NCBI GenBank assembly: GCA_020628645.1
Contig: JAHDES010000002.1
Location: forward strand, 218,832-282,831
Reading direction: 5' to 3'
Source of the DNA: Saprospiraceae bacterium
GTDB taxonomy: Bacteria > Bacteroidota > Bacteroidia > Chitinophagales > Saprospiraceae
DNA length: 64,000 bases
The position numbers and the translations under genes were made by a program. Positions 3,359 through 12,491 of this stretch are shown here, piece by piece (position 1 is the first letter of the stretch; each line of letters starts with the position of its first letter). The notes under the pieces are model-generated. The model made no database searches and had not been told where the DNA came from. It worked only from the letters and a program-made list of their open reading frames with translations.

Positions 3359-4534
3359 ATGTACCAAGTAAACGAACGAGGCTATTACGGAGAATTTGGA
3401 GGAGCTTATATTCCCGAAATGCTCTTTCCCAATGTAGAAGAGTTGCGACAGTGCTATGTCGAAATCATGAACGAACCGAAGTTCCAAAAAGAATTCCAAG
3501 ATTTATTGCGAGATTATGTAGGAAGACCTTCGCCTTTGTATTATGCAAAGCGACTTTCGGCGCATTATCACACCAATATTTACCTTAAAAGAGAAGACCT
3601 TAATCACACAGGCGCGCATAAAATCAATAATACCATCGGACAAATTTTGATGGCTAAACGATTGGGCAAAACTAGAATTATTGCAGAAACGGGTGCAGGT
3701 CAACATGGCGTAGCAACAGCGACTGTTTGTGCTTTAATGGGCATTCAATGCATTGTTTACATGGGAGCGGTCGACATCAAACGACAAGCTCCAAATGTAT
3801 CGCGTATGAAAATGTTAGGCGCAGAAGTTCGTCCAGCCGAAAGTGGTAGCAAAACCCTAAAAGATGCTACCAACGAAGCTATTCGAGATTGGATCAATAA
3901 TCCAGAAAATACACATTACATCATTGGTTCAGTCGTGGGGCCACATCCATATCCTGATATGGTGGCTCGTTTTCAATCGGTGATTTCAGAGGAAATGAAA
4001 TGGCAATTGAAAGAACAAACAGGGAATGAAAATCCTGATATCATCATTGCATGTGTGGGAGGAGGAAGTAATGCAGCAGGAGCCTATTATCACTACATGG
4101 ATGAAAAAGAGGTACGCTTGGTAGCCGTAGAAGCAGCAGGTCATGGCATTCATTCAGGCGAATCAGCAGCGACAAGTGTTTTAGGAACGAAAGGAATCAT
4201 TCACGGAAGCCGCACCCTTTTAATGCAGACAGACGATGGACAAATTATAGAACCGTATTCCTTATCGGCTGGTTTGGATTATCCTGGAATTGGCCCCCTT
4301 CATGCTCATTTGATTGATTCTGGACGTGCTGAGGCCGTCAGCATTACCGATCAAGAAGCTTTAGATGCTGCTTTTTTCTGTTCTCGTCAAGAAGGAATCA
4401 TTCCTGCATTAGAAACGGCTCATGCTTTTGCCGCAATGGATAAAATCAAGTATTCAGAAAAGGATGTGGTCGTTATTAACTTATCTGGTCGAGGAGACAA
4501 GGATTTACAAACCTATATCAAACATTTGAAGTGA
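3359..4534 (+). CDS. trpB: tryptophan synthase beta chain
   Basis: This 391-aa PLP enzyme condenses indole with serine to give tryptophan and works as an alpha2-beta2 complex with TrpA. The PLP-binding Lys88 sits in [11 protein letters not shown]. The phosphate loop GGGSN is at 234-238. The N-terminal [10 protein letters not shown] and the C-terminal LSGRGDKD motifs are classic for TrpB1. Length is normal. Its stop is followed after one base by the trpA start, implying translational coupling of the two subunits. Confidence 0.97.
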
Positions 4535-4535
4535 T

Positions 4536-5336
4536 ATGAATCGTATAAAACAACTATTCAAAAATAAAAAGAAAGACATCCTCAATATCTATTTCACGGC
4601 TGGATATCCAAATCTTAGTGATACCAAAACCATCATTTTAGAATTAGAAAAAGCTGGAGTTGATTTAATAGAAATCGGAATGCCTTATTCTGATCCATTA
4701 GCAGATGGGCCAACGATACAAGAAAGTGGGACGCATGCCTTAAAAAATGGAATGAATTTGCCTTTATTGTTTGAACAAATAGCAGAGATTCGTCAGCATT
4801 CAAATATTCCTTTGATTTTGATGGGCTATTTCAATCAGATGATGCAATATGGTGATGTAGCATTCCTACTAAAGTGTGCAGAAGTGGGGATAGATGGACT
4901 CATTTTACCTGATATGCCTTTGTATGTCTATGAAGAACAATATCAAACTTTATTTGAAAAATATGATTTGACGATTAGCTTTTTAATTACACCACAAACA
5001 GGGGAGGAGCGTGTCCGAAAAATTGATGCTTTGAGTAAAGGATTCATTTATATGGTCTCCAATTCTTCCATTACTGGAGCAAAAACAGGTATTTCTGAGG
5101 GACAATTGAATTATTTCAATCGTATCAATCAATTGCAATTACAAAATCCTCGTTTGATTGGCTTTGGAATTTCCGATCATAAAACCTATTCTACCGCTTG
5201 TCAATATGCAAATGGAGCGATCATCGGAAGTGCTTTTATTAAAACCATTGCACAAGAAGGTGATTTAACAACATTAATTCCTGATTTCATCAACTTTGTT
5301 AGAAATCCTCAACTAGAAACGACTGAAATAGTCTAA
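4536..5336 (+). CDS. trpA: tryptophan synthase alpha chain
   Basis: This 266-aa TIM barrel cleaves indole-3-glycerol phosphate to indole and G3P and channels indole to TrpB. The catalytic acids are Glu46 in LIEIGMPYSDP and Asp57 in LADGP, matching E49 and D60 of the E. coli enzyme. The phosphate-binding GFGISD and GAIIGSA segments lie towards the C terminus. It closes the trp genes proper and is followed by a 15-bp tandem repeat and the DAHP synthase gene. Confidence 0.97.
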   Translation: MNRIKQLFKNKKKDILNIYFTAGYPNLSDTKTIILELEKAGVDLIEIGMPYSDPLADGPTIQESGTHALKNGMNLPLLFEQIAEIRQHSNIPLILMGYFNQMMQYGDVAFLLKCAEVGIDGLILPDMPLYVYEEQYQTLFEKYDLTISFLITPQTGEERVRKIDALSKGFIYMVSNSSITGAKTGISEGQLNYFNRINQLQLQNPRLIGFGISDHKTYSTACQYANGAIIGSAFIKTIAQEGDLTTLIPDFINFVRNPQLETTEIV

Positions 5337-5340
5337 ATTC

Positions 5341-5395
5341 TAAAAATCTAGCATCTAAAAATCTAGCATCTAAAAATCTAGCATCTAAAAATCTA
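5341..5395 (+). repeat. 15-bp direct tandem repeat, about 3.7 copies
   Basis: The unit TAAAAATCTAGCATC occurs exactly at 5341, 5356 and 5371, and a partial unit TAAAAATCTA ends at 5395, five bases before the DAHP synthase ATG. The repeat fills the whole gap between trpA and that gene. Such arrays change copy number by slippage, which could alter the spacing or translation start region of the next gene. Confidence 0.9.
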
Positions 5396-5399
5396 AATC

Positions 5400-6419
5400 A
5401 TGATTATCCAATTAGCTAAAGATATCACCACAGCCCAACATGCTCAATTAGAAGAACAACTAAAAGCGATCAATTACAAATCTAACCATGTAAAAACCCA
5501 ATTTGGCGATTATATCATTGGGGTAGGGAAGAAAGATTTTGATATTCGTACCATCGGGATTTTAGAAGGTGTGCAAGATATTCATCGAGTGAGTGATGCT
5601 TATAAATTAGTCTCCAAAAAATGGAAGGTTCAAGATACCGTAATTGATTTAGGAGATGGCGTAAAAATAGGAGGTGGACATTTCCAAATGATGAGTGGAC
5701 CTTGTTCTATAGAATCCGAAGATCAAATTGAAAAAACGATTCAGCTCTTAAAGGATAATGAAGTGAAAATCATGCGCGGAGGGGTATACAAACCACGTTC
5801 ATCTCCATATTCGTTTCGAGGATTGGGCATTGATGGTTTGAAAATGTGGTACAAAATGACCCGTGCTGCTGGCATCAAAATCATAACCGAAGTGATGATG
5901 ACCGAGCAGATTGATGCTATGATGGATTATGTGGATATTTTCCAAGTGGGGGCTCGTAATTCTCAAAATTTCAATCTATTAGATGCTTTGGGTAAAGTAG
6001 ACAAACCTATCATGCTCAAACGTGGAATTTCGGGTACTTTAGATGAATTGTTACAAGCGGCAGAATACATTTTTTCTAATGGTAATGAACGCATTATGCT
6101 ATGTGAGCGCGGTATTCGTTCTTATGAAAAAGCCTATCGTAACACCTTTGATATCAATGCAATAGCGATGTTGAAGGAAAAATCGCATTTGCCTGTTATC
6201 GCAGATCCATCTCATGGAATAGGTGTGCGCCGATTTGTGGAGCCAGTTGCTTTGGCGGGTGTGATCGCAGGAGCTGATGGAGTGATCTTTGAATCGCATC
6301 ATGTGCCTGAAAAAGCCTTTAGTGACGGACAACAAACACTCAATCATCAAGAAGCTTCAAAATTGATCCAAAAAATAAGAAAAACACATGCTTTAAGAGA
6401 AGAAATGGCAAGAATGTAA
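5400..6419 (+). CDS. aroF: DAHP synthase, type I-beta with N-terminal ferredoxin-like regulatory domain
   Basis: This enzyme condenses phosphoenolpyruvate with erythrose 4-phosphate to DAHP, the first shikimate step. It has 339 aa, nearly the length of the Thermotoga maritima enzyme. Residues 1 to about 75 form the ferredoxin-like domain that senses aromatic amino acids in that enzyme. The barrel follows, with the metal-ligand Cys102 in SGPCSIES, the substrate motif KPRSSPYSF from 131, and ADPSHGIGVR late in the chain. No chorismate mutase domain is present, although fusions of the two are common in Bacteroidota. Its place behind trpA suggests joint expression with tryptophan synthesis. The effector cannot be told from sequence. 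Confidence 0.93.
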   Translation: MIIQLAKDITTAQHAQLEEQLKAINYKSNHVKTQFGDYIIGVGKKDFDIRTIGILEGVQDIHRVSDAYKLVSKKWKVQDTVIDLGDGVKIGGGHFQMMSGPCSIESEDQIEKTIQLLKDNEVKIMRGGVYKPRSSPYSFRGLGIDGLKMWYKMTRAAGIKIITEVMMTEQIDAMMDYVDIFQVGARNSQNFNLLDALGKVDKPIMLKRGISGTLDELLQAAEYIFSNGNERIMLCERGIRSYEKAYRNTFDINAIAMLKEKSHLPVIADPSHGIGVRRFVEPVALAGVIAGADGVIFESHHVPEKAFSDGQQTLNHQEASKLIQKIRKTHALREEMARM

Positions 6420-7613: not shown

Positions 7614-8303
7614 TTATTCTTTCACATGAAGAATAAAGCCAACTTTAAAGACATTTTCGATTTTAATGCGTTCGTCTTTTTTTAATAATTTTCGGATGCG
7701 GGATACAAAGACATCGAAACTTCTTCCTAGAAAATAATCTTTTTTACCGTAGATTTTTTCTACCGCCTCATCGCGACGGAGAATTTGATTTTTATTTAAG
7801 CAAAGTAAGCGTAAAACCTCATTTTCTTTCTCGGTGAGGCGTTTGATTTCATCAGAATGACTTAATTCTTGACGACAATAATCGAAGGCATAATCACCTA
7901 ATTCAAATTGAGTAAGTTGACGTTCTTGAATAGGTTGATTTTGTCTTCGAAGAATGACTTTTATTTTGCAAAGTAATTCATCTTCATCAAAGGGTTTTAT
8001 AATAAAATCTTCGGCTCCAAGGGCGTAGGCACGTAATTTATCTTCTTTTAATGATTTGGCTGTCAGAAAAAGAAAATCAGTAGTTTGATTTTCTAAACGG
8101 ATGTGTTTGGCAAGACAAAAACCATCCATTTTGGGCATCATAATATCCAAAATACAAAGATCAAATTGTTCTTTTTTAAAGGTATCTAAACCCGATTTTC
8201 CATCTCTACAAAGCTTCGTTTGAAATCCTTCCCCTTCTAGAAATTCCATTAATAAAAAACCCAGACTTATATCATCTTCAACGATTAAAATTCGTTTTTG
8301 CAT
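7614..8303 (-). CDS. response regulator, OmpR/PhoB family
   Basis: This 229-aa regulator has a receiver domain (about 3-117) with acidic pocket Asp10/Asp11, phospho-acceptor Asp53 in LCILDIMMPKMDG, Thr81 and Lys103. A winged-helix DNA-binding domain follows (about 130-228). It lies 11 bases behind its kinase gene and is surely cotranscribed. It resembles the RprY-like regulators of Bacteroidota, but I cannot name the orthologue. OmpR-family proteins bind direct repeats with an 11-bp period, and such an array lies upstream of the kinase gene. Confidence 0.93.
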   Translation of the reverse strand: MQKRILIVEDDISLGFLLMEFLEGEGFQTKLCRDGKSGLDTFKKEQFDLCILDIMMPKMDGFCLAKHIRLENQTTDFLFLTAKSLKEDKLRAYALGAEDFIIKPFDEDELLCKIKVILRRQNQPIQERQLTQFELGDYAFDYCRQELSHSDEIKRLTEKENEVLRLLCLNKNQILRRDEAVEKIYGKKDYFLGRSFDVFVSRIRKLLKKDERIKIENVFKVGFILHVKE

Positions 8304-8314
8304 TATTTTACATT

Positions 8315-9547
8315 TTAGGATTGAAGGGGTAAAATGACATCAAAACGGCTTCCTTTTTTTAAATTACTTATTACACGAATCATGCCCTTGTGGAGTTCCA
8401 CGACTTTCTTTACATACACTAAACCCAAACCAAAGCCTTTTTTATCATGGACATTTCCAGTAGAAATACGTTGAAATTTTTCAAATATAAAGGCTTGATT
8501 GCTTTTACAAATTCCTACTCCATTATCTTGAAATTGGATGTTAATATCCTTTTCATCTTGTACCAAAGAAATTTGAATTTGAGGCGTATGATCGCAATAT
8601 TTGATGGCATTATCAATCAGATTTCGGAAGACATTTGCTAAATGAAAGCGATCAGCTTCTACAAATAAGTGGGAATTATTGGGTTGAAAAATCAGTTGGC
8701 CTCCTTTATCTTCCAAAGCGACTTGCATGCCATGAATGGTCTCATTTAATAATTGAACGAGATCAATTTTTTCTTTGTGAAGGATGTCTTCTCCACTTTC
8801 GAGTTTAGAAATTTGAAGAATACGTTCTACTTGTTCTCTTAATTTTTTTCCTTCATCGGAAACGATTTGGAGGTAGCGATTATCTTTTAAATGCGTTTCT
8901 TTTTTGGCTAATAAATTACTGGCTAATTGAATATTCGTAAGAGGCGTTTTAAATTCATGTGCCATGTTATTAAAAAAGTCAATATTTCGTTGTGCTACTC
9001 TTTTTTGACGATGTAACATCCAATTGATTAAGGCAAACAAACCACTTATCAGTAACAAAATAAGGATGGAAGAAATCAGCATAAAACGAATTTCTTTAAA
9101 AATATAAGCTGATTTACCAGGAAAACTCACCTGCATTCGATGTCCATCAGAGTTAATCGAAAATGGAGTTAAGGCACAGCAATATGTCCCTGTTTTATTT
9201 GATTTTTTTTGAGTAATTTCTACTTGATAATAGGCATCAATATTATAAAACTCCATAGCTCTTTGGAGGGCGATTTCAGTATCTTCTATTGAAAAGGGAG
9301 AGCTGGAAACCACTTTATCTTCACATTTAGGCGTGTTATTGATGGGAGCTGCGCAGGATAGAGTGGCAGTAGGTGAATCAGCATTTAAATAATTAACTGC
9401 CATACACATTGCCATATCCACTTTTTGATCGAATTGTTCTTCTAATAAAGATCTGGACTGTTGTAACCAACTAATTTGAAAATACAACAATAGCAAAATT
9501 GCAGCAATGGAAATAAAAAGGGTAATAGATTCTTTGTAGGCTTTCAT
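8315..9547 (-). CDS. sensor histidine kinase, two-TM with Cys-containing periplasmic domain
   Basis: A 410-aa membrane kinase. TM1 is at about 8-28 and TM2 at about 154-178; between them is a sensor domain of about 120 residues containing Cys48, 65, 75, 123 and 124. The cytoplasmic part has the H box with His197 (NNMAHEFKTPLTN), the N box with Asn313 (NLIDNAIKY), and the G boxes DNGVGI (341-346) and GFGLGL. It phosphorylates the OmpR-type regulator next door. The unusual Cys content, and the divergent Cys-rich target, suggest a metal or redox signal; that is inference. Confidence 0.93.
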   Translation of the reverse strand: MKAYKESITLFISIAAILLLLYFQISWLQQSRSLLEEQFDQKVDMAMCMAVNYLNADSPTATLSCAAPINNTPKCEDKVVSSSPFSIEDTEIALQRAMEFYNIDAYYQVEITQKKSNKTGTYCCALTPFSINSDGHRMQVSFPGKSAYIFKEIRFMLISSILILLLISGLFALINWMLHRQKRVAQRNIDFFNNMAHEFKTPLTNIQLASNLLAKKETHLKDNRYLQIVSDEGKKLREQVERILQISKLESGEDILHKEKIDLVQLLNETIHGMQVALEDKGGQLIFQPNNSHLFVEADRFHLANVFRNLIDNAIKYCDHTPQIQISLVQDEKDINIQFQDNGVGICKSNQAFIFEKFQRISTGNVHDKKGFGLGLVYVKKVVELHKGMIRVISNLKKGSRFDVILPLQS

Positions 9548-9600
9548 TAAAATGAAGTTATAGATACAAAAAACGGCATTTTTTAGGCAGTATGCTATGC

Positions 9601-9640
9601 TTTAACAGCTCTTTAACAAGTGAATAACAGCTTTGTCACA
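9601..9640. promoter_or_regulatory. putative response-regulator operator: four 7-mers at 11-bp period
   Basis: Four related 7-mers begin at 9601, 9612, 9623 and 9634: TTTAACA, TTTAACA, AATAACA and TGTCACA, each separated by 4 bases. The 11-bp spacing of direct repeats is the classic binding geometry of OmpR/PhoB-family regulators. The array lies between the kinase gene and the Cys-rich protein gene, 22 bases before the -7 box of the latter. Confidence 0.6.
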
Positions 9641-9661
9641 GCTACAACTCTTGTTTAGGAC

Positions 9662-9669
9662 TAACTTTG
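9662..9669 (+). promoter_or_regulatory. -7 box (TAnnTTTG) for the Cys-rich protein gene
   Basis: TAACTTTG matches the Bacteroidota -7 consensus exactly. It places transcription start near 9675, giving a leader of about 60 bases that includes a small CTCAG/CTGAG hairpin. A TTTG at 9632-9635, inside the last operator repeat, is somewhat far for a -33 box, so activation by the regulator is plausible. Confidence 0.55.
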
Positions 9670-9733
9670 TGGTATCAATTTTATACGTTCGGTAGCTCAG
9701 CGATTCTGAGTGAAAATATTAAATTCAAATCCA

Positions 9734-10123
9734 ATGAAACGTTTATTCATGTTCAGTTTTTTATTTGTAATGATGAGTTTTGCTGCAACAAGCACATTTG
9801 CACAAACGAAAACTTGTACTAAAGCAAAAAAGGCAGCTTGTCAAAAAGCGAGTAAAGTAGCCCTTGAAGAAGGAACAAGCAAAGCAAATTGTGAAGCCAT
9901 TTGTAAAATATTGAACTGTGATCCCAAAGATTGTCCTCCTAAATGTTGTAAAGGAACAAAAGCAACAGCTACGGCGACAGCAACAATGGAAGCGACTCCT
10001 GTAAATTATGTTGAAGTAAAACAAGCGGCTACCACTAAAAAAGCTTGTTGTAAAAATAAAACGGCTTCCACTTGTAAGAAATCCGAAGCTACGGCTACTA
10101 AATTAGCAATGAAAGAAGAATAA
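9734..10123 (+). CDS. small Cys-rich exported protein, probable target of the adjacent two-component system
   Basis: I choose the ATG at 9734 (129 aa), because it starts a standard signal peptide (MKRLFMFSFLF and onwards, cut after about residue 24 at FAQ). A GTG 24 bases upstream would only add charged residues. The mature protein is Lys-, Ala- and Thr-rich with 11 cysteines, including two CC pairs and a CEAIC motif, and an Ala-Thr run in the middle. It looks like a periplasmic metal-binding or thiol-rich protein. I do not recognise the family. A strong terminator follows. It is divergent from the two-component pair, with the 11-bp repeat array between them. Confidence 0.8.
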   Translation: MKRLFMFSFLFVMMSFAATSTFAQTKTCTKAKKAACQKASKVALEEGTSKANCEAICKILNCDPKDCPPKCCKGTKATATATATMEATPVNYVEVKQAATTKKACCKNKTASTCKKSEATATKLAMKEE

Positions 10124-10155
10124 GAAAATATTTATTTTGATTAGTTGATCAGAAA

Positions 10156-10182
10156 CCTGATGCCTAAGCATCGGGTTTTTTT
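10156..10182 (+). terminator. rho-independent terminator after the Cys-rich protein gene
   Basis: CCTGATGC pairs with GCATCGGG (one G-T pair) around a CTAA loop and is followed by seven Ts. It overlaps the stop codon of the convergent AlkC-like gene. Confidence 0.85.
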
Positions 10183-11258
10183 ATGACCTCAAATGAAATA
10201 GTGGCTTTTTCTACACCATTAATGATAATGCTTAATTGATGTATTCCGGGATAATGCGTTCGAGTAGTAAAATCTTGAAAAGATTGACGACGTTTGATAT
10301 TTGTTATTCCTTTAGGGTAGGTGTTTTCTGTAATTTTGAATACTTTTCTAGACGTTTTTCCTGATTTTTTAACATAATCAATAGCGTATTCAATACGACT
10401 AACATCCTTAGTTTCTGCACTATTATTTATATCAAAATTAAAATGTAAATAATCCCCAATTTCAATAGGAGAAGGCGCACAGCTTAAATTATTTATAGAA
10501 ATATGAATAGGATCAGCAAATCCGAAAATTAACATTGCTTGTGTATTTCCAGCTTTTAAAAGTGTACGACAAGCATGTTTGACCAATTTATCTCGATTTT
10601 CATTTGCGCCAATCCATTTTTCAGCGATTTTTAAAACTAAATTAGGATGTTCTTTTGCAATGTCATTTAAATTATTGGCGACAGAACGGCGAACATATTC
10701 CGAAGAATCATCTTTAAGTTGTTTTAAAATAGGCAAAATAGGAGCGGGGTCTTTTTTTAAATTTGGAAGTCCCATACCCCAAGGCAATCTAGGGCGACAG
10801 CCTTCACTAGCAAGGCGACGGACATGATGGTTCTCATGTTTTGACCAAGTATACAATTGCTTAAATGCTCGCTTTGAATCCTTTTTGATAAAGGGACGAA
10901 TGGCAAATTCTGCACTTGAAAACTGCGTCAAATATTCCATATTTTGCATCGAAATATCCCAATGTTCTAATCCATATAATTCAACAAAATCAGGAAACCA
11001 CATATCCAAAAGACCATCGCCAACAGGTGCAATAGCTTTTACAATTTCGACAGCTTTTTCATATGGAAGGGCGATTGCTTCAAAGACACTTTCACTAATC
11101 CGTCGCATTCGTGCTTTTAAGGCTAAATCTTCCCAATCATTTTTATAAACGATTTGCAAAAAAGCATCCTTCTCAAAATAAGGAATTTGTAGTGCAATTT
11201 TATCAGCTATTTGTATTAAATAGGATTCATTATATCGGTCTTTGAGTAATTCTGCCAT
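10164..11258 (-). CDS. DNA alkylation repair protein, AlkC-type HEAT-repeat glycosylase with C-terminal Ig-like domain
   Basis: A 364-aa protein. Residues 1 to about 250 are HEAT-like helical repeats. The segment LASEGCRPRLPWG is the signature of the AlkC branch (COG4335) of the AlkC/AlkD superfamily, which excises cationic alkylated bases such as 3-methyladenine and 3-methylcytosine without flipping them. Residues about 255-362 are beta-rich, with a YAIDYVKKSGK strand pattern like the Ig-like domain known on the C terminus of some AlkC enzymes. Just upstream is a small lipoprotein gene, 7 bases away and probably in the same transcript. The role in alkylation damage repair is inferred from the family. 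Confidence 0.88.
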   Translation of the reverse strand: MAELLKDRYNESYLIQIADKIALQIPYFEKDAFLQIVYKNDWEDLALKARMRRISESVFEAIALPYEKAVEIVKAIAPVGDGLLDMWFPDFVELYGLEHWDISMQNMEYLTQFSSAEFAIRPFIKKDSKRAFKQLYTWSKHENHHVRRLASEGCRPRLPWGMGLPNLKKDPAPILPILKQLKDDSSEYVRRSVANNLNDIAKEHPNLVLKIAEKWIGANENRDKLVKHACRTLLKAGNTQAMLIFGFADPIHISINNLSCAPSPIEIGDYLHFNFDINNSAETKDVSRIEYAIDYVKKSGKTSRKVFKITENTYPKGITNIKRRQSFQDFTTRTHYPGIHQLSIIINGVEKATISFEVIKKPDA

Positions 11259-11759: not shown

Positions 11760-12491
11760 TTATAATGGCTTAACAGATCCTGATCCAACTTTGCTTACAG
11801 AAACTTGCGGATTGCCCTTGTAAAATACATCGCCACTTCCTACAATACTGACATCCAAATTGCTAGAAACATCTACTTTGCAACTGCCACTACCAGCAAT
11901 GCTAACATCACAGTCACTACTTTGTAATCCTGCGGCATCAATATCGCCACTACCAGCTATACTCAAATCTAAATCAGGGCTTTGTCCTGAAATATCAATA
12001 TCACCTGATCCACCGATGGAAGCTTCAACTGATTTTGCTTGGACATCTACTTCTATGCTTCCAGAACCGCCAATGGAAAGTTCAACTTGATTGGCTCGGT
12101 CAAAATGATTTTCTCCAATGATATCTCCAGAACCTCCAACAGAAAGTTCTTGAATTTCTTTCATAGTGACATAAATCTTCGTTTTGCCATAATTTTTCTT
12201 GTAATTATTCCATTTGTCTTTCATTTCAATTTGCCAAGTACCATTTTTAACTTTGCGGCTAATTTTACTAATGAATTCGTCGTCTCCTTCAAAACGGACG
12301 CTTTGCTTATTGCCTTGTTTGACATAAACATCTGCGCTTATGCCTAATGCAATTCCAGTTATTGGAGCCAATTCAGCAGATTTTTCAACGAATTTTACAT
12401 TCGTGGCTTTACCTTGTTGAACATCCGAAGAACAGCTAAAAAAGAAAAGGGTGATGGAAAAGAGGAAAAGGCTAAGATATTGGTTTTTCAT
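11760..12491 (-). CDS. lipoprotein with GIN / DUF2807 beta-helix head domain
   Basis: A 243-aa protein with a lipoprotein signal ending at Cys20 (FFFSC). Residues about 40-240 contain the repeating pattern SIGGSGDI / SIAGSGDI (at least nine copies), the hallmark of the putative auto-transporter adhesin head GIN domain (DUF2807) of Bacteroidota, which folds as a right-handed beta helix. It sits at the cell surface or periplasm. The biochemical role of the family is unclear. A terminator follows the gene. Confidence 0.88.
   Translation of the reverse strand: MKNQYLSLFLFSITLFFFSCSSDVQQGKATNVKFVEKSAELAPITGIALGISADVYVKQGNKQSVRFEGDDEFISKISRKVKNGTWQIEMKDKWNNYKKNYGKTKIYVTMKEIQELSVGGSGDIIGENHFDRANQVELSIGGSGSIEVDVQAKSVEASIGGSGDIDISGQSPDLDLSIAGSGDIDAAGLQSSDCDVSIAGSGSCKVDVSSNLDVSIVGSGDVFYKGNPQVSVSKVGSGSVKPL

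Follow-up and report, generated by a model that had tools for sequence, protein, structure and literature searches.

Regulators of the OmpR/PhoB family bind to tandem direct repeats placed about one helical turn apart beside the core promoter. In the CpxRA-CpxP and ZraSR-ZraP systems, a small exported protein is encoded divergently from the sensor-regulator operon. Metallothioneins are Cys-dense proteins with CxC and CxxC clusters, and preQ1-I riboswitches are small H-type pseudoknots in mRNA leaders. The locus analyzed here lies in a stretch of 64,000 nucleotides from Saprospiraceae bacterium (the window) and comprises the following features.

7614 to 8303, minus strand: OmpR/PhoB-type response regulator of 229 aa (Pfam Response_reg 7.6e-28, Trans_reg_C 1.7e-12)
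8315 to 9547, minus strand: membrane histidine kinase of 410 aa with a Cys-bearing periplasmic sensor region (HisKA, HATPase_c)
9601 to 9640, plus strand: four 7-mers with an 11-bp period, predicted regulator sites (cores TAACA at 9603, 9614 and 9625; TCACA at 9636)
9662 to 9669, plus strand: putative -7 box TAACTTTG for sigma-A in the promoter of the Cys-rich gene, starting 59 nt beyond the first core
9689 to 9710, plus strand: predicted H-type leader pseudoknot of 22 nt, two interleaved helices with covariation (RNA-model match at 9686-9720)
9689-9691 with 9701-9703, plus strand: pseudoknot helix S1, TCG/CGA
9696-9700 with 9706-9710, plus strand: pseudoknot helix S2, CTCAG/CTGAG
9734 to 10123, plus strand: putative exported Cys-rich protein of 129 aa with 11 Cys, the predicted output (ATG at 9734, stop codon ending at 10123)

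With a probability of roughly 0.7, we propose that a dedicated two-component system activates the exported Cys-rich protein and that the leader pseudoknot tunes its translation. Comparison of orthologous loci at the level of sequence shows co-conservation of the components, the array, its promoter register, covariation in the RNA and a link between the RNA and the start codon.

Much of this arrangement, the leader pseudoknot excepted, had been noticed in a preliminary description of the locus, and the particulars of that description were confirmed. The 7-mers TTTAACA, TTTAACA, AATAACA and TGTCACA do begin at 9601, 9612, 9623 and 9634 with exact 11-bp spacing, and the ORF at 9734-10123 beyond them has the 11 Cys claimed for it. 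The divergent operon, said to encode a kinase and an OmpR-type regulator, has the domains of such a pair: a receiver (Response_reg) with Trans_reg_C, and a HisKA/HATPase_c partner encoded alongside, as in OmpR/PhoB two-component systems. The kinase sensor was said to bear Cys, and 3-7 Cys were found in all 87 orthologues defined below.

Orthologues of the kinase were searched for in 398 Saprospiraceae-like family genomes with a profile of the N-terminal 200 residues (12 sequences). The 87 matches of at least 168 bits were accepted, the next best being at 117 bits, and the upstream DNA of all 87 was examined. The phospho-acceptor His is invariant among 12 aligned kinases. Counted over the 87 orthologues and numbered as in the window, Cys 48 is conserved in 64, Cys 65 in 79, Cys 75 in 53 and Cys 124 in 78; the sensors of 18 paralogous kinases have 0-4 Cys. 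A structure model of the sensor reached a pLDDT of 86 and had no match at E <= 0.001 in Foldseek. The best Z score for this fold in VIA was 5.8, among unrelated proteins, with the sensor domains of CusS and WalK among the weak matches. The structure alignment (A4) was made with the window and 63 other loci, picked by hand from the 87 to thin out near-duplicates. The nearest NCBIfam family to the regulator is RprY (232.2 bits, below the equivalog cut-off of 370).

With up to three mismatches allowed, the four-copy repeat pattern gave a single match in the window, whereas 100 dinucleotide shuffles gave none. Copies 1-3 with free spacer bases occur a single time in the genome to which the window belongs (6.18 Mb), where the backwards-read three-copy pattern has no occurrence. 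Exact three-copy sites were found 16 times in 60 genomes, nine at the kinase/Cys-rich module and seven elsewhere; the reversed-pattern control gave five, so the seven outside the module may be due to chance. One of these seven, in the window's own genome, is accompanied by a -7 box in register.

To compare loci, arrays were scored as three TAACA cores (15 letters) reading away from the kinase within 700 nt. The preliminary description had made its proposal depend on the repeats being kept upstream of orthologues. At period 11 a score of at least 13/15 was found in 82 of the 87 loci, with the full 15/15 in 59, and in two more (L063 and L068, scores 15 and 14) the array lies beyond 700 nt from the kinase. 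Three loci (L098, L124, L128) score 12/15. At periods 7-10 and 12-15, or on the opposite strand, at most one of the 87 loci reached 13/15. The 11-bp array is not chance. As a further control, 18 paralogous kinase loci from related genomes were scored at period 11: none exceeded 13/15, two reached 13, and one had a nearby 7-Cys ORF that looks unrelated.

In 79 of the 87 loci the array is followed, within 400 nt, by the start of a plus-strand ORF encoding 6 or more Cys. The count rises to 82 with three displaced cases, in which the ORF follows another gene (L144, L145) or the array is far from the kinase (L147). In L106, L130 and L136 the contig end is reached before any Cys-rich ORF, and in two of the 87 (L098, L104) none was found, with no contig end to explain it. 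Kinase, regulator and Cys-rich ORF are, on this comparison, conserved as a set. At L104 (G102:C18) the kinase and an array with one core mismatch are kept while the -7 box and the hairpin are altered, and the locus looks as if its output is being lost.

Eight named relatives of the kinase consist of seven Saprospiraceae/Saprospirales records (one a fragment) and one from Arsenicibacter rosenii. Outside the family, an array with a Cys-rich ORF is present in Arsenicibacter rosenii (L154) and in L157 and L158, two of the three kinase matches at class level, the exception being L159. Diverged modules were seen at L197 (G063:C70) and L196 (G163:C40), with array copies 1, 2 and 4, the pseudoknot and Cys-rich ORFs of 79 aa; the L197 kinase has 12 Cys and scores 109 bits against the profile.

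According to PMC6847099, the main sigma factor of Bacteroidota has TAnnTTTG as its -7 box. The start of this sequence lies precisely 59 nt beyond the first core in 58 of the 82 loci, and in 69 if one mismatch is allowed. The interval 9601-9669 singled out in the preliminary description ends exactly where the -7 box TAACTTTG ends. By our own arithmetic on the numbering used in PMC6847099, the fourth core falls at about -38 to -34, the place expected for the -33 box. A sigma-70 scan of window positions 9500-10300 gave no match. On the kinase side of the 82 arrays, 46 occurrences of TAnnTTTG with no more than one mismatch were counted at a distance of 28 or 29 nt from the first core (23 per offset), and in nine of the 82 loci the exact sequence occurs between array and kinase. 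These boxes in register weakly suggest that the kinase operon is autoregulated through the same array. Overall, the proposal of a self-contained circuit is supported by the comparison: the array (82/87), the Cys-rich ORF (82/87), sensor Cys (87/87) and the fixed -7 register all recur.

Two arrays elsewhere were recorded. In the window's own genome a second three-copy 11-bp array (L057/L199, G000:C92:155366-155392) precedes a DUF4349 gene (Pfam 6.2e-44); by manual count TAnnTTTG stands 48 nt after its first core, in register and one repeat short of 59. This array is possibly a second regulon member or chance. At L049 (G028:C21:23691) a three-copy TAACA array lies in reverse orientation upstream of a protease-like gene, which we take to resemble HtrA/DegP.

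The program that listed ORFs started the Cys-rich gene at GTG 9710; the hydrophobic N-terminus begins at ATG 9734, as in orthologues, and from this N-terminus, inspected by eye, the protein is predicted to be exported. It matched no Pfam or NCBIfam family at E <= 0.001, and a protein search with the ORF in 60 genomes returned only the query itself. Because the protein could not be traced by similarity, its relatives were found through the neighbourhood and an RNA model instead. Seventy-nine such proteins have a median of 10 Cys (range 7-21) and 136 aa. Past the signal peptide they contain 16.0% Ala, 14.6% Lys, 8.9% Cys and 0.2% His. The spacings CxC and CxxC are depleted in them (0 and 8 observed versus 61.6 and 55.2 in shuffles), and CxxxC and Cx4C are enriched (145 and 164 versus 50.9 and 47.0). 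An AF2 model made with 10 sequences was poor (pLDDT 51) and mostly unstructured, with three short helices after the signal peptide. Matches of 10 Cys-rich proteins to Pfam at E <= 1 were scattered; the best, to MerR-DNA-bind at 2.3e-05 in a single member, we regard as a chance helix likeness. Visual inspection of 10156-10182, 3′ of the Cys-rich gene, suggests a terminator-like element, an 8-bp stem and then a run of T, which is absent from the output of the scan of 9500-10300.

The analysis of leaders revealed a 5-bp hairpin with a 5-nt loop in 51 of 85, whereas 200 shuffles had 0.9 on average and never more than 4; it was not found in the other 34. A triplet 4 nt upstream of the hairpin pairs with the first three loop bases, and this pairing constitutes S1. 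It is Watson-Crick in 40 of 55 leaders (CCG/CGG 19, CTG/CAG 9, TCG/CGA 7, GCG/CGC 3, ACG/CGT 1 and ATG/CAT 1), while 20,000 permutations, with all 55 leaders taken in, gave a mean of 14.0 and a maximum of 27. Since the 5-bp stem and a C as the first loop base had served as selection criteria for leaders, counts for S2 are biased towards structure; S1 was unselected apart from that C.

For covariation, an alignment of 52 leaders (51 distinct) was used. L069, L071 and L098 were dropped from the 55 and L066 was moved to its second hairpin, because the scan had picked an unrelated stem in these; two variant leaders with another loop (L083, L085) stand outside the alignment. Over both helices 98.0% of cells were paired, and covariation was 0.339 versus 0.154 in shuffles (0/500 as high) and at most 0.100 when the helices were slid. 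S1 alone gave 0.491 versus 0.212 (0/500), and at most 0.141 when slid, with two of its five measures unremarkable (both-side changes, 461/500 shuffles; further pair types, 57/500). Mapped on the kinase tree, the outer S1 pair requires at least 18 changes of state and the middle pair at least 11. In independent tree pairs the S1 partner follows in an average of 2.9 of 8 and of 4.7 of 6 cases and does the opposite in none, crossed controls giving 0.1 and 0.0; these tests comprised 8, 6 and 4 pairs, too few to reach significance. Seven model matches from outside the alignment pair in S1 in all cases, one with a G-U and one by a new double change (TTG/CAA). Compensatory changes in two interleaved helices thus back the predicted H-type pseudoknot. 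Minimum-free-energy folding of the window leader was no better than that of shuffles (z 0.29), so the structure rests on the covariation.

Comparison with Rfam 15 gave no match over the pseudoknot up to E = 1 for window positions 9540-10200, nor any over the element in 10 loci, nine of which bear the pseudoknot. A resemblance of GGTAGCTCAG to a tRNA D-arm was also weighed; it was dropped because the loop changes jointly with the upstream triplet.

The distance from the end of the stem to the start codon, with start codons chosen by a custom signal-peptide score, is 16-28 nt in 47 of the 51 leaders and 36, 54, 80 and 139 nt in the others. The distance from the first core of the array to the stem varies from 79 to 290 nt, unlike the stem-to-ATG spacing. 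In the 398 family genomes at E <= 0.001 the RNA model gave one match each in 58 genomes, and all 58 directly precede an ORF: 56 of these ORFs have at least 6 Cys, and the other two run into a contig end after 29 and 5 codons. In G018 and G147, where the Cys-rich gene lies behind another gene, the pseudoknot is still at its start codon. Its sequence pattern occurs once in the window's own genome, allowing up to one mismatch. Among 390 genomes of the class, three weak matches outside the family were rejected as true elements; they sit within unrelated ORFs and look like background. Since the pseudoknot tracks the start codon and not the promoter, an action on translation is favoured over transcription attenuation.

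At L169 (G020:C2:21975) and L164 (G021:C311:1456) a pseudoknot and a Cys-rich ORF are present with no array, away from detected kinase orthologues; the RNA and the Cys-rich protein are thus separable from the kinase. The pseudoknot match in G163 has 475 nt of contig on its upstream side.

There is a serious chance, somewhat short of even, that the leader structure is passive, a spacer or an mRNA stabilizer with no regulator. It is only 22 nt long, has a poor free-energy score and is missing in 34 of the 85 leaders; no hairpin was seen in the out-of-family loci L154, L157 and L158 either, and these gaps together mean that the RNA is not required everywhere. Against a passive structure stand its fixed distance to the start codon, the strong S1 covariation and its restriction to Cys-rich genes. 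More tentatively, the pseudoknot could represent a new class of regulatory RNA, one that acts on the translation of fast-evolving exported Cys-rich proteins only and is read by a factor or a cellular signal (cysteine supply, thiol state or metal), which would put a second, post-transcriptional lock on the circuit.

For binding, activation, the signal, the translational effect and the job of the Cys-rich protein, we infer the following course. The membrane kinase, through its Cys-bearing periplasmic sensor, would detect a signal in the envelope, the likeliest being a soft thiophilic metal or a thiol/disulfide change, and would phosphorylate its OmpR/PhoB-type partner. The regulator would bind head-to-tail on the four 11-bp repeats and, as the promoter-proximal repeat lies at the place of the -33 box, would help sigma-A polymerase at the -7 box to switch on the Cys-rich protein. 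The weaker -7-like match on the kinase side may place the kinase operon under the same array. In many species the leader pseudoknot, 16-28 nt before the start codon, would tune translation. The exported protein would serve as a thiol or metal sink, perhaps with feedback on the sensor.

The signal and the job of the exported protein could be read in three ways, which may hold together. Defence against metals is plausible at rather less than even odds: the sensor would bind a soft metal (Cu(I), Ag, Cd, Hg or Zn) and the protein would be a periplasmic metal sponge. A Cys-rich output together with a Cys-bearing sensor fits this, as do the enrichment of CxxxC, as on Cys-lined helices, and CusS and WalK among the weak fold matches of the sensor. 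However, those matches fall below any useful threshold, the spacings of metallothioneins are absent (CxC) or rare (CxxC), His makes up 0.2% and the cassette has no metal transporter.

A thiol-redox circuit we consider somewhat unlikely; here the sensor would respond to whether its own Cys form disulfides, and the protein would serve either as a sacrificial thiol buffer or as a substrate for the disulfide machinery. Sensor Cys are conserved at two main positions, and the protein is Lys/Ala-rich, mostly unstructured and fast-changing, so that what persists is the number of Cys and the type of spacing, not the sequence; yet that number itself varies from 7 to 21. That the exported protein mainly binds its own sensor, damping or setting the response as in CpxP/ZraP-like feedback, is unlikely. 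It would fit the 79 of 87 loci in which gene and kinase operon diverge from one shared array, but the Cys-rich gene can sit apart from the kinase with its RNA element alone (L164, L169), and its sequence evolves much faster than the sensor. Reading of the repeats by an RprY-type paralogue in place of the adjacent regulator is improbable. It is favoured by the likeness of the adjacent regulator itself to RprY, by a near match to two TTTAACA copies in front of a paralogous kinase in the window's own genome (L034) and by the 2 of 18 paralogue loci that reach 13/15, but 82 of the 87 loci of this kinase family have full arrays and no paralogue among the 18 exceeds 13.

A DUF2807 head-GIN-domain gene (Pfam 4.4e-46) lies a few genes past the module, at window positions 11760-12491, and the genes adjoining the module at 3359-6419, presumably resembling trpB, trpA and DAHP synthase, have no evident link with it.

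A dedicated two-component system acting on an exported Cys-rich protein would be a complete, testable cassette in a little-studied family, with sensor, regulator, array in promoter register and a single output gene. Where protein similarity could not trace the Cys-rich protein, the array and the RNA element do so through genome after genome; since the RNA outlasts recognizable protein sequence, the pseudoknot would also serve to locate members of a protein family that sequence searches miss. Should the RNA turn out to be regulatory, it would be a new class. According to PMC6847099, Bacteroidota do without Shine-Dalgarno sequences and initiation is tuned by mRNA structure and by nucleotides close to the start codon. 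With its fixed position ahead of a start codon, a conserved pseudoknot would be a natural case in which to study the control of initiation by structure in this phylum. No report of the module or the RNA appears among the matches listed from the open-licence literature, a weak sign that none exists.

Systems of this kind are known; what sets the present one apart is its Cys-rich output and, more than that, the leader pseudoknot specific to one gene. With OmpR/PhoB-family regulators the locus shares the domains and half-sites about one helical turn apart, the last of them in the -33 region; it differs in having its own core nnTAACA and a Bacteroidota sigma-A promoter, with binding predicted. Within Bacteroidota the closest relative is RprXY, RprY being the best NCBIfam match to the regulator, yet at 232 bits against a cut-off of 370, and the paralogous kinases tested lack a full array and a convincing Cys-rich neighbour. 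The divergent layout of CpxP and ZraP recurs in 79 of the 87 loci, with export judged by eye from the N-terminus, whereas the window protein is Cys-rich, predicted to be mostly unstructured, of a kind often preceded by a leader pseudoknot, and has no Pfam match at E <= 0.001. Csp copper-storage proteins likewise have many Cys, and CxxxC is enriched here; they form a Cys-lined four-helix bundle, whereas the poor AF2 model has no confident helix bundle. Metallothioneins are alike in their many Cys, but here CxC is absent and CxxC rare. Finally, preQ1-I riboswitches resemble the leader element in having two short interleaved helices just before the start codon, whereas the element described here, 22 nt long and with no Rfam match, is tied to Cys-rich genes.
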